From NCBI RefSeq assembly GCF_041107455.1, contig NZ_JBGBPY010000001.1:744001-808000 (forward strand): a stretch of DNA of 64,000 nucleotides. The letters run 5' to 3'. Shown here piece after piece: positions 15,235 through 49,295 of this stretch (positions within the stretch are counted from its first letter, which is position 1; every line of letters starts with the position of its first letter). The notes under the pieces were generated by a model. It was not told where the DNA came from and did no database searches. It saw nothing but the letters and a program-made list of their open reading frames with translations. The DNA comes from Rhodanobacter humi. Lineage in GTDB: Bacteria > Pseudomonadota > Gammaproteobacteria > Xanthomonadales > Rhodanobacteraceae. The translations under genes and the position numbers were made by a program.

Positions 15235-15282
15235 GCGACCAGGATGGCCGCCCGTTTGGTCCTCGCGATCAAGGATGATCGC
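15235..15282 (+). repeat. GGA-loop hairpin repeat, copy 2 (BepA-like gene leader)
   Basis: Two hairpins whose loops start 30 nt apart. The first is GCGACC-AGGAT-GGCCGC (15235-15251), with five of six pairs and a loop one base short. The second is GCGATC-AAGGAT-GATCGC (15265-15282), with a perfect stem. The second loop reads CAAGGATG. They lie in the presumed 5' leader of the protease gene, whose start is at 15310, on its coding strand. Confidence 0.75.
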
Positions 15283-15309: not shown

Positions 15310-16992
15310 ATGCCCATGTCGCCACGACGCCCCGCCAAGCGCCTGCTGACCGCCCTGATCCTCGCCGGCCTCGCCTTCGCCGCCGGGGCGCAGGATCGCC
15401 TGCCCGACCTCGGCAGCTCGGCGAACGCGCTGATCTCGCCGCAGGAGGCGCAAGACTACGGCGCCGCGATGCTGCGCCAGATGCGCGCGCTGGGCATGGT
15501 GGTGGACGACCCGCTGCTGGACGACTACATCAACGATCTCGGCTTCCGCCTGGTGGCCGCCTGCGCCAAGCCGCGCGACCACTTCGCGTTCTTCATCGTC
15601 AAGGACGACGAGATCAACGCGTTTGCCGCGCCCGGCGGTTACATCGCGGTGAACTCCGGCCTCATCACGATCACCCGCAACGAGAGCGAGCTGGCCGGCG
15701 TGATCGCCCACGAGATCGGCCACATCACCCAGAACCACCTGCAGCGCGCATTCGAGGCCTCGAAGAAGGACGCCCCGCTGATGGCGCTGGTGCTGCTGGG
15801 CGCGATCGCCGCCGGCACCGCCGGCCGCGGCGCCGGCGACGCGCCGACGGCAGTGTTTGCCGCGGGTCAAGGCCTGCTCGCGCAGAAGCAGATCAATTTC
15901 ACCCGCAAGGACGAGATCGAGGCCGACCGCGCCGGCATCCAGACGCTGGCCAACGCCGGCTTCGATCCGAACGCGATGGCCGCGTTCTTCGGCCACATGG
16001 AAGACGTGATGAGCGCCGGCGCCGGTGGCCAGGTGCCGTCCTTCCTGCAGGACCACCCGGTCACCAGCGACCGCATCGCCGACGCCAAGGCGCGGGCCGG
16101 CGCGCTGATCGCCGCGCAGAAGCTGCGCCCTTCCGGCGACACCCTGCTCAAGGGCCAGTGGGAGCAGATCACCGCGCCGATGCCGTTCGTGCGCGCACCG
16201 CTCCGGCTCGACCGTCATGCCGCCGATCCGAACGGCCTCGACACCTACGCCTTGATGCGCGAGCGGGTGCGCGTGCTGTCCGGCAACGCGCTACGGCTGG
16301 CCACCTGGTACAGCAGCAACCTCAAAGACCACCCGGAGTTCGACACGCCGGCGAACCGCTACGGCTATGCGCTGGCGCTCACCCACAGCGGCCGCGGCGC
16401 GCAAGCGATGACGCAGCTCGAACCGCTGCTCAAGACGCACCCGGGCAGCCTGATCCTCACCCTGGCGCAGGCCGACGCCGAACTGCAGGCCGGCAGGCGC
16501 GACGCCGCGCTGGCGCTGTACCACCAGCTCAACGAGCAATCGCCGCGCAACCGCGCGGTGGCGCTGGCCTATGCCACCGCGCTCACCGAACACGGCGACA
16601 AGACCCAGGCCGCCACCGCGGCGGACCTGCTGCGCCCGCTGCTGCAGGACAGCGATCAGCCCGAGATCTACAGCGCCTACGCCCGTGCCAGCGACAAGGC
16701 CGGCGACGGTGAACGCGCCGGCGAGGCCTTCGCCGACGCCAGCTACTACTCCGGCCGTCCATTCGACGCGATGGAACAGCTGCAACGCCTGCTCAAGCGC
16801 GACGACCTCAGCTACTACGCCCGCGCGCGCATCCAGGCGCGCATCGCCGAACTCACCCCGCTGGTGCTGGAACTGCGCAAGCGCAAGATCGCCACCCCGG
16901 ACAACCCCGCCACCCGTGACGGCTCGCAGCAGTTGCAGCATCAGCAGTGCGCCGGACGGCTGTGCTTCGGCCTGGATACAAGCTCTCACTAA
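15310..16992 (+). CDS. bepA: BepA-like periplasmic M48 metalloprotease/chaperone
   Basis: 560 residues. The signal peptide (about 12-30, ending GAQD) is followed by an M48 peptidase domain with the zinc motif HEIGH at 134-138 and the third ligand in EADRAG (about 204). A C-terminal TPR-rich region (about 330-520) completes it. This is the layout of BepA (YfgC), which assists or degrades outer-membrane proteins such as LptD at the BAM complex. The ATG at 15310 (or 15316) was chosen. The in-frame extension from 15226 is translated repeat sequence. It is flanked on both sides by GGA-loop hairpin arrays. Confidence 0.9.
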   Translation: MPMSPRRPAKRLLTALILAGLAFAAGAQDRLPDLGSSANALISPQEAQDYGAAMLRQMRALGMVVDDPLLDDYINDLGFRLVAACAKPRDHFAFFIVKDDEINAFAAPGGYIAVNSGLITITRNESELAGVIAHEIGHITQNHLQRAFEASKKDAPLMALVLLGAIAAGTAGRGAGDAPTAVFAAGQGLLAQKQINFTRKDEIEADRAGIQTLANAGFDPNAMAAFFGHMEDVMSAGAGGQVPSFLQDHPVTSDRIADAKARAGALIAAQKLRPSGDTLLKGQWEQITAPMPFVRAPLRLDRHAADPNGLDTYALMRERVRVLSGNALRLATWYSSNLKDHPEFDTPANRYGYALALTHSGRGAQAMTQLEPLLKTHPGSLILTLAQADAELQAGRRDAALALYHQLNEQSPRNRAVALAYATALTEHGDKTQAATAADLLRPLLQDSDQPEIYSAYARASDKAGDGERAGEAFADASYYSGRPFDAMEQLQRLLKRDDLSYYARARIQARIAELTPLVLELRKRKIATPDNPATRDGSQQLQHQQCAGRLCFGLDTSSH

Positions 16993-16996
16993 AAGT

Positions 16997-17100
16997 GCGG
17001 CAAGGATGGCCGCTTTTGTGAATAGTGCGGCCATGGATGGCCGCCCGTTTGATTTTGCACTCATGGACGAGTGCACGGGTAACCACTCACGGACGAGCGC
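16997..17100 (+). repeat. GGA-loop hairpin array, copy 3 (four units)
   Basis: Four consecutive hairpins with loop starts at 17002, 17033, 17063 and 17089. Unit 1 is GCGGC-AAGGAT-GGCCGC (one-base bulge). Unit 2 is GCGGCC-ATGGAT-GGCCGC (perfect). Unit 3 is GCACTC-ATGGAC-GAGTGC (perfect, 7 bp with flanks). Unit 4 is CCACTC-ACGGAC-GAGCGC (four of six pairs). All four loops with closing bases fit CANGGANG, the CsrA/RsmA recognition sequence. Stems differ but remain complementary. The array lies after the protease stop and before the phoB promoter region. Confidence 0.8.
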
Positions 17101-17151
17101 ACAAATAACTCGCACAAGTAACCCATGTCATCGCCGCGTAACATTTCTGCA

Positions 17152-17169
17152 CTGCAATATCACGGTCAC
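17152..17169 (+). promoter_or_regulatory. candidate Pho box before phoB
   Basis: CTGCAAT-ATCA-CGGTCAC has the 7-4-7 layout of the PhoB box (consensus CTGTCAT-N4-CTGTCAC), matching 5 of 7 and 6 of 7 bases. It lies 21 nt before the phoB GTG, as expected for autoregulation by phosphorylated PhoB. Confidence 0.6.
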
Positions 17170-17189
17170 AGGCCAACGGACGCTGACGC

Positions 17190-17879
17190 GTGCACAAACG
17201 CATCCTGATCGTCGAAGACGAAACCTCGATCCGCGACATGATCGCGTTCGCCCTGCGCAAGGCGGACATGGAGGCGATGCAGGCCGCCGACGCCCGCGCC
17301 GCCCAGCTGGCCATTTCCGAGCAGGTGCCCGACCTGATCCTGCTGGACTGGATGCTGCCGGGCATGAGCGGGCTGGAACTGGCGCGCCGCCTGCGCAAGG
17401 AGGAGCTGAGCCGGGAGATCCCGATCATCATGCTCACCGCGCGCGGCGAGGAGATGGACCGCGTCAACGGCCTCGAGGCCGGCGTCGACGACTACGTGGT
17501 CAAGCCGTTCTCCACCCGCGAGCTGATCGCGCGGATCAAGGCGGTGCTGCGGCGCAGCCACGGCGACGACGGCGACGGCGTGGTGGAGCTGGGCCGGTTG
17601 CGCATCGACGGCCCCGCGCATCGCGTCTACGCGGGTGACGAGCCGGTGACGATCGGCCCCACCGAATACCGCCTGCTGCACTTCTTCATGACCCATCCCG
17701 AACGCGTGTACTCGCGCGCCCAGTTGCTCGACCACGTGTGGGGCGGCAGCGTCTACGTGGAGGAGCGCACCGTGGACGTGCACATCCGCCGCCTGCGCAA
17801 GACGCTGGAACCGTGGAAGCTGGAAGACATGGTGCAGACCGTGCGCGGCAGCGGCTACCGTTTCTCGCTGAGTGCCTGA
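17190..17879 (+). CDS. phoB: Phosphate regulon response regulator PhoB
   Basis: 229 residues. The receiver domain (1-120) carries the acidic pair E9-D10, phosphorylation site D53 in LLDWMLPG, and K-P-F switch residues in VVKPFST. The OmpR/PhoB winged-helix domain (130-227) contains [18 protein letters not shown] and [12 protein letters not shown]. It activates Pho regulon genes under phosphate limitation when phosphorylated by PhoR. The start is a GTG at 17190. It is followed 115 nt later by phoR and then ppk1, a fixed order in this bacterial group. Confidence 0.96.
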
Positions 17880-26308: not shown

Positions 26309-26400
26309 GCGATTCGTCCGGAATCGCCGTAGCGTGCGGATGCCGGCAGGCTTCAAGCTCTCGCTCCGCTCTCGCGCCACCAGCGGCCATCCATGGCCGC
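26309..26400 (-). repeat. GGA-loop hairpin repeat, copy 4
   Basis: On the minus strand: GCGGCC-ATGGAT-GGCCGC (26383-26400, perfect, loop context CATGGATG) and GCGATTC-CGGAC-GAATCGC (26309-26327, perfect 7-bp stem). About 55 nt separate them, the same architecture as copy 1 at 120-212. It lies between ppx and ppiA, both on the plus strand, so the GGA-bearing strand is antisense to its neighbours. Confidence 0.72.
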
Positions 26401-49185: not shown

Positions 49186-49295
49186 GTGGGCATCCGTGGC
49201 CGCGAACATGGAACGGCGACCATCCGTGGCCGCGCTCAAAAGGTTTTGCGCTCGTCCGTGACCGCCGGAATCAAGAAGCGGCCATCCATGGCCGC
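49186..49295 (-). repeat. GGA-loop hairpin array, copy 5 (secD leader, four units)
   Basis: Read on the minus strand: GCGGCC-ATGGAT-GGCCGC (49278-49295, perfect), GCGGTC-ACGGAC-GAGCGC (49248-49265, five of six pairs), GCGGCC-ACGGAT-GGTCGC (49216-49233, five of six), GCGGCC-ACGGAT-GCCCAC (49186-49203, four of six). Loops recur every 30-32 nt and all fit CANGGANG. The array ends 14 nt before the secD start codon and lies on its sense strand, between yajC and secD. Confidence 0.8.

Follow-up and report, generated by a model that had tools for sequence, protein, structure and literature searches.

Small RNAs that sequester CsrA are single, discrete transcribed genes, and REP sequences of the RAYT type carry a GTAG or GTGG foot before the palindrome. 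The repeat described here resembles TwoAYGGAY (RF01731), a motif of two hairpins with CA(C/U)GGA(C/U)G loops that Weinberg et al. (2010), in the part of their article bearing on it, judged to be a probable RNA, probably not cis-regulatory, from the human gut, gamma-Proteobacteria and Clostridiales (PMC2864571). Rfam clan CL00106 contains both TwoAYGGAY and RsmW. Binding by CsrA was proposed for TwoAYGGAY in 2014 (PMC4333381), and this prediction is the sole functional idea found, within the excerpts covered, for a motif that has been an orphan since 2010; other texts, as excerpted, list a structure update for it in Rfam 15 (PMC11701678) or discuss loop stability (PMC11661157). The excerpts nowhere describe TwoAYGGAY as a dispersed repeat or as tested for strand, and the literature search returned no description of the Rhodanobacter repeat. 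According to the portion of the article consulted, RsmU, a Xanthomonas RNA that is processed from a 3′ UTR and binds RsmA, still does so when all four of its GGA motifs are changed (PMC7694677), and GGA counts alone are therefore weak evidence. Bacillaceae-1 (RF01690), a motif of the Bacillales and Lactobacillales that can be likened to the Rhodanobacter repeat by description only, is of uncertain functional strand, its reverse complement fitting the CsrA motif (PMC4333381, in the passage concerned).

The window—the whole stretch of 64,000 nt that was analyzed—covers positions 744001–808000 of the larger of the two contigs of the 4.15-Mb genome of Rhodanobacter humi. At 16997–17100, four plus-strand hairpins follow one another between two plus-strand predicted genes, one at 15316–16992, which ends 4 bases before the first hairpin, and one at 17190–17879; the names putatively attached to these genes, BepA-like and phoB respectively, come from an earlier interpretation made from the letters of the window (hereafter the sequence-only reading). 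That reading placed the loop starts correctly, at 17002, 17033, 17063 and 17089 on the plus strand, but its four hairpins are not equally sound. The second (A type, 17027–17044, GCGGCC-ATGGAT-GGCCGC) and third (B type, 17057–17074, GCACTC-ATGGAC-GAGTGC) are perfect and together make up one short-form unit, whereas the first (A type, 16997–17013, loop AAGGAT) has decayed to a bulged stem with one arm base missing, and the fourth (B type, 17083–17100, loop ACGGAC) retains about three contiguous pairs.

Similar units do recur at the four other places named by the sequence-only reading, some of them decayed or in a longer form. A plus-strand short-form unit at 15235–15282 consists of a decayed A hairpin (15235–15251, one loop base lost) and a perfect B hairpin, GCGATC-AAGGAT-GATCGC, at 15265–15282. 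The long-form copy at 26309–26400, whose GGA lies on the minus strand between two plus-strand genes, has its A hairpin at 26383–26400 and a B-like hairpin, GCGATTC-CGGAC-GAATCGC, at 26309–26327. A minus-strand array of four (49278–49295, 49248–49265, 49216–49233 and a weak hairpin at 49186–49203) occupies 49186–49295 and has the same strand as its flanking genes. Finally, a decayed long-form copy on the minus strand at 120–212 adjoins a tRNA gene, with a B-like hairpin at 120–138 and an A-like one at 195–212 that has lost its GGA (loop ATCGAT); in this copy, as in that at 26309–26400, the A hairpin and the second hairpin are about 73 nt apart. Ten exact CANGGANG octamers had been counted in these places, and they are present, but some of them stand in unsound hairpins.

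The repeat unit, as read from 72 adjacent ANGGAN hairpin pairs in loci of the same genome (A–B and B–A pairs alike, three of them representing chance or other elements), comprises two same-direction hairpins with C-ANGGAY-G loops, and is often found in tandem with a period of about 64 nt. Its elements follow in the order TTGAARAGT, hairpin A (GCGGCC-ANGGAT-GGCCGC), 12 or 13 nt, hairpin B (GCGATC-ANGGAY-GATCGC) and AAAAG; the consensus preceding A is TTGAAAAGT and that preceding B is TCTTC, and the loop N is any base in the column consensus, wider than Y only. Short-form units measure 62 nt and long-form units about 105 nt. A B hairpin follows in 108 of 203 A hairpins, the spacing being 30 or 31 nt for 76 of them and 70–79 nt for 23, figures that leave aside the 95 A hairpins that no B follows; the two forms thus space their hairpins at roughly three and seven helical turns. 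Among 30 long-form copies in 28 loci, a survey of interiors of 50–60 nt, the A–B distance is about 71–75 nt and the interior is 53–57 nt in 29, with widely varied sequence (for example, at loci L161, L168 and L131). A third hairpin within this interior was considered and rejected (mean z −0.4; below −2 in 3 of the 30). The unit ends are not inverted, and TTGAARAGT and AAAAG are non-complementary, so an outer stem around both hairpins is absent. Neither strand of the unit consensus, by eye, has a U-run behind either hairpin, and the unit is therefore not an intrinsic terminator. The column consensus likewise has no GTAG or GTGG foot ahead of the palindrome.

Within the window, the CANGGANG octamer occurs 59 times against 42 expected (1 of 100 shuffles reached 59), and there are 10 C-ANGGAN-G hairpins that form 5 or all 6 of their pairs, against a shuffle mean of 3.65; because the maximum among 200 shuffles was 11, the window alone leaves the question of chance unsettled. 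The earlier argument that the copies were hard to explain by chance does not, then, hold for the octamer itself, which is not rare in the window, but it is settled in its favor genome-wide: exact GCGGCCANGGAYGGCCGC occurs 53 times in the 4.15 Mb, with T at the Y position in at least 42 of the matches listed, and the reversed control not at all. Loci examined in the same genome yielded 141 ANGGAN hairpins in 74 arrays, some being chance or other elements. A chance origin was rejected on the strength of dozens of arrays with covarying stems, common though the octamer alone may be. Of the 233 family genomes, 166 contain exact A hairpins, as do 16 of the 26 genera, while an order-wide sample shows the pattern in 119 of 398 genomes, with a patchy distribution; outside the family, genome G486 has 38 exact copies and G464, of the same genus, has none. 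A scan of named genomes returned at least 117 stretches, many from Rhodanobacter, Dyella, Dokdonella or Frateuria. Matches filed under Tolypothrix, Streptomyces, Brevundimonas and Bacillota (L126, L136, L185, L116 and L182) probably represent contamination, binning error or chance.

Comparison of 34 units among six relatives, drawn from 10 of 12 chosen sites and restricted to copies present and similar enough to be counted, indicates which parts of the hairpins are held. Orthologous substitutions affect 5 of 198 GGA positions and 1 of 68 first loop A positions, but 23 of 68 loop N positions; stems have changed at 37 of 806 positions, the spacer at 55 of 430 and the aligned flanks at 718 of 7205. 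The difference between GGA and N is pronounced (Fisher p = 3e-11), although the rows come from related species and the true value is weaker. Stems, in turn, covary: the fourth pair of hairpin B is Watson–Crick in 241 of 277 cases against 103 after shuffling, and two-sided changes number 101 against 22. ATGGAT-type loops are borne by several unrelated stems; of 421 hairpins in a genome sample of 464 kb, 14 have ATGGAT, more than any other loop of six bases (the next has 9). Since GGA is held, N is free and the stems covary, something recognizes the loop. The pattern is what CANGGANG recognition predicts, and the sequence-only reading was right that structure is kept over stem sequence and that the CANGGANG positions are the constrained part of the loop.

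That reading went further, however, and proposed the array as a CsrA/RsmA-binding RNA, for which the direction of the copies is informative. Gene calls were those of a self-made gene finder that works without curated annotation and was applied unchanged to other genomes. In co-directional gaps of the Rhodanobacter genome, 32 of 55 arrays have their GGA strand antisense to the flanking genes and 23 have it sense, a count that omits 1 edge array and 8 inside genes; in 137 loci of other genomes the figures are 76 antisense and 30 sense of 106, after exclusion of 20 arrays located at the end of a locus and 19 falling within predicted genes. The combined test, confined to sense and antisense arrays and including orthologous loci, so that its rows are not independent, gives 56 sense and 115 antisense of 171 (p = 8e-6, gene context). 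Equal use of both strands had been named in advance as telling against a CsrA-binding RNA; the copies go beyond equality, toward antisense, in both sets. By eye, the matches listed for the Rhodanobacter genome show no flip of the kind that a replication-strand bias would give. In units with GGA in at least one loop, a set that includes orthologous loci and hence non-independent rows, sense stems retain GGA in 119 of 129 cases and antisense stems in 242 of 261. Orthologous GGA substitutions number 3 of 71 in sense, 1 of 119 in antisense and 1 of 8 in convergent copies, and orthologous stem changes number 18 of 287 in sense and 11 of 474 in antisense copies (p = 0.01).

Mismatches within the stems bear on the same question. 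An RNA read from one strand should tolerate G.U and not A.C, yet the GGA strand shows no such excess, with 56 G.T against 53 A.C mismatches among 417 profile hits that include non-independent orthologous rows. The balance is unchanged (49 against 50) in the 371 of 417 hits kept after removal of 46 whose two loops both lack GGA (probably, in many cases, wrong-strand matches to the palindrome), counting stems with at least 4 of 6 Watson–Crick pairs. A control on 22 tRNAs gave 3 G.T and 0 A.C, which says little about the power of the test. Antisense excess, GGA upkeep no better in sense copies and the lack of a wobble excess together leave a general family of CsrA-binding transcripts unsupported, and general function as sense-strand CsrA transcripts was rejected on these strand, upkeep and wobble counts. 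At the same time, wobbles favor the mRNA strand in either copy direction (48 against 29, p = 0.04; permutation over arrays, p = 0.044), a marginal lean that points to generic structure of RNA 3′ ends whichever way a copy lies, and a hint that the structure of the transcribed RNA counts as well.

The arrays tend to lie close to stop codons. Arrays are rarer in divergent gaps (5 of 74) than background gaps of at least 60 nt would suggest (51 of 226). In other genomes, the neighboring stop codon is no more than 40 nt away for 38 of 76 antisense arrays, and the stop on their own side is equally near for 17 of 30 sense arrays. Where alignment to relatives was possible, at 11 of 12 sites probed, copies are shared, multiplied, decayed or absent across six relatives; in the bepA–phoB gap itself, one close relative (L254) has a single diverged unit and another (L255) has none. 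Empty sites were found, but their flanks are too diverged to place insertion joints, and no clean empty site among those probed in the six relatives delimited the unit ends. In one locus (L208:4848, genome 1904848), a four-hairpin element is immediately preceded by an inverted second copy of a stretch from the end of the upstream gene.

How far, then, can these units be identified with TwoAYGGAY? In design the likeness is real: the earlier comparison with Csr-type RNAs is upheld insofar as the hairpins follow the design of TwoAYGGAY, a clan-mate of RsmW and predicted CsrA binder. A scan of the whole window at Rfam gathering scores, however, returned only a tRNA, and a scan of 16900–17200 (E up to 10) listed RsmW alone, at 15.2 bits against a cut-off of 52, and no TwoAYGGAY. 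The Rhodanobacter genome has two TwoAYGGAY matches at E up to 1, the better reaching 22.7 bits against a gathering cut-off of 43. Matches above 43 bits occur in 4 of 61 genomes (G249, G239, G236 and G146), and three genomes of other families have multicopy elements that contain this A hairpin, GCGGCCANGGATGGCCGC, but are otherwise quite unlike the Rhodanobacter unit; relatives within the order thus share GCGGCCANGGATGGCCGC and reach or approach the cut-off. Full-model matches were obtained at 3 of 8 loci of G486 and G249, all below 43 bits (41.1 and 33.9 in G249, 27.7 in G486). Each of ten folded elements of G249 carries, on top of an outer stem whose sequence is its own, two hairpins with GGA loops, mostly of the ANGGAN type; across loci L351–L378 the long outer stems vary from copy to copy, while the two-hairpin tip is conserved. 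In contrast, the Rhodanobacter unit is without an outer stem, tandem and dispersed. With scores far below the cut-off and no outer stem, the units are like TwoAYGGAY in design and are not filed as it. They share with CsrB, RsmZ, RsmY and RsmW the repeated GGA hairpin loops and paired sites, but differ from them in forming dozens of arrays (74 in the loci examined in this genome) on both strands.

Comparison with REP sequences and BIMEs is equally two-sided. Short palindromes, many per genome, lying in stop-codon gaps in either direction and in clusters, are common to both, whereas the Rhodanobacter repeat has a same-direction hairpin pair and a conserved loop. Mobilization by a RAYT (Y1) transposase, as for a classical REP, would suit short dispersed palindromes beside stop codons, and Y1_Tnp genes are indeed present in 158 of 233 family genomes and, as one or two genes, in 6 of 7 element-rich genomes. 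But no Y1 transposase was found in the Rhodanobacter genome itself, and the seventh element-rich genome, G037, has none either, despite 38 exact hairpins. The Y1 flanks covered are those of 36 distinct loci of relatives, a part of the Y1 genes found: an ANGGAN hexaloop hairpin with a stem of at least 5 occurs at only 2 of 30 family Y1 loci, and in 9 loci viewed closely (three of them among the 30) an ANGGAN loop occurs at one, on a 4-bp stem, another hairpin with a GGA or TCC loop at 4, and paired units beside the Y1 gene at none. At the Y1 locus of G486 a GTAG-headed palindrome, noted by eye, lies beside the gene instead. With no GTAG foot in the unit and no Y1 transposase in the genome, the repeat is not a REP of the RAYT type; that candidate was rejected on these grounds, on its lack in G037 and on the rarity of such hairpins at the Y1 loci covered, and it is scarcely credible as an account of the array.

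The best reading, although a tentative one that may well prove wrong, is that the array is a copy of a REP-like, strand-neutral hairpin repeat with a loop-recognizing partner. The copies are dispersed, their stems covary, the A and GGA of the loop are constrained while N is free, and copies are inherited at orthologous sites; moreover, the GGA strand has no preference for the strand of the gene, and no Y1 link appears in the loci examined. The arrays would then represent an old dispersed repeat of the Xanthomonadales with a TwoAYGGAY design, copies of which are inherited at fixed sites, gained, lost and tandemly multiplied, and tend to sit beside stop codons in either direction. The loop would be kept by recognition independent of the direction of transcription, most simply by a putative protein that binds the hairpin as single-stranded or extruded DNA, and hairpins that happen to be transcribed would be only generic 3′-end structures of whichever mRNA reads through. 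The sequence-only reading had itself offered a REP/MITE-like element as its alternative; this fits better than a CsrA RNA, but the transposase attached to it was not found. Against the REP-like reading stand the failure to find a DNA-binding or moving protein or a clean empty site, the lean of wobbles to the mRNA strand, and a close CANGGANG fit and hairpin pairing that suit a CsrA dimer. Further, 17 of 29 related elements in three genomes of other families lie in convergent gaps, a placement that would suit a 3′-end RNA function equally well.

Two RNA-level explanations compete with it. As a CsrA/RsmA decoy, the paired hairpins of the GGA strand would each hold a CsrA dimer, many copies buffering or sequestering the protein in the manner of CsrB and RsmZ. 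We consider this doubtful, yet the exactness of the loop and the membership of TwoAYGGAY in the Rsm clan keep it a serious reading. The loop fits the CsrA optimum, with GGA far more constrained than N; the GCGGCCANGGATGGCCGC hairpin appears in elements scoring 41.1 and 33.9 bits, with others reaching the cut-off; and CsrA binding has been proposed for TwoAYGGAY in print (PMC4333381, as excerpted). The genome also has two csrA genes, one per contig, as the sequence-only reading had asked to be checked, and the RsmU precedent lies in Xanthomonas (PMC7694677, portion consulted). The second csrA lies at G000:C2:44918–45073, on a 59-kb contig that is perhaps a plasmid. What weighs against a decoy is that two thirds of arrays have GGA on the antisense strand, that sense copies keep GGA no better, that the GGA strand shows no G.U excess, that no Rsm or CsrB family reaches its cut-off in the window, and that RsmU binding itself, in the text consulted, outlasts the change of all its GGA motifs (PMC7694677). 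Antisense transcription may account for the antisense copies, or sense copies may have been selected against for binding CsrA. It is also possible, if unlikely, that the opposite strand is the functional one, and that an mRNA with RUCCNU-loop hairpins behind its stop codon is selected, whether as an exonuclease block, as insulation of ribosomes or transcription, or as the site of a UCC-loop binder. The antisense orientation is the commoner one, its orthologous stems change less, and wobbles follow the mRNA strand; Bacillaceae-1 offers a parallel in its uncertain strand (PMC4333381, as excerpted). But the lean of the wobbles is marginal, one array in three points the other way with equal GGA upkeep, and the lack of a U-run removes the role of an intrinsic terminator. 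A more speculative proposal, and an improbable one, is that the CANGGANG tip is a docking module that serves in no fewer than four dissimilar repeat architectures of the Xanthomonadales, with stems and outer arms freely rewritten, and recognized as both single-stranded DNA and RNA, perhaps by CsrA or a recombinase. In that case a selfish or chromosome-organizing DNA repeat would have taken over a CsrA site, and what Rfam records as TwoAYGGAY and as part of the Rsm clan would be no more than its conspicuous fringe.

For TwoAYGGAY, the dozens of arrays in one genome (the 74 above) supply statistics that the orphan motif had lacked. The evidence of direction and wobble does not point to an RNA of the GGA strand, though the loop is clearly recognized, and this is a warning that motifs of palindromic repeats can be filed as RNAs of the wrong strand. 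Other GGA-bearing repeats accompany the one described here. A second repeat, with a core of approximately GACGCGGGGAG-hairpin(ATGGAT)-GCTYTGRGGAGCGAGGAA, is nested in different outer inverted repeats at L202:5502, L042, L057, L212:8953 and L217. Another element, some 170 nt long and rich in GGA, contains GAGGAAAGTCCG and has no Rfam match at gathering scores; it occurs at L204:9849, L205:16370 and L019, and presumably resembles a stretch of RNase P RNA.
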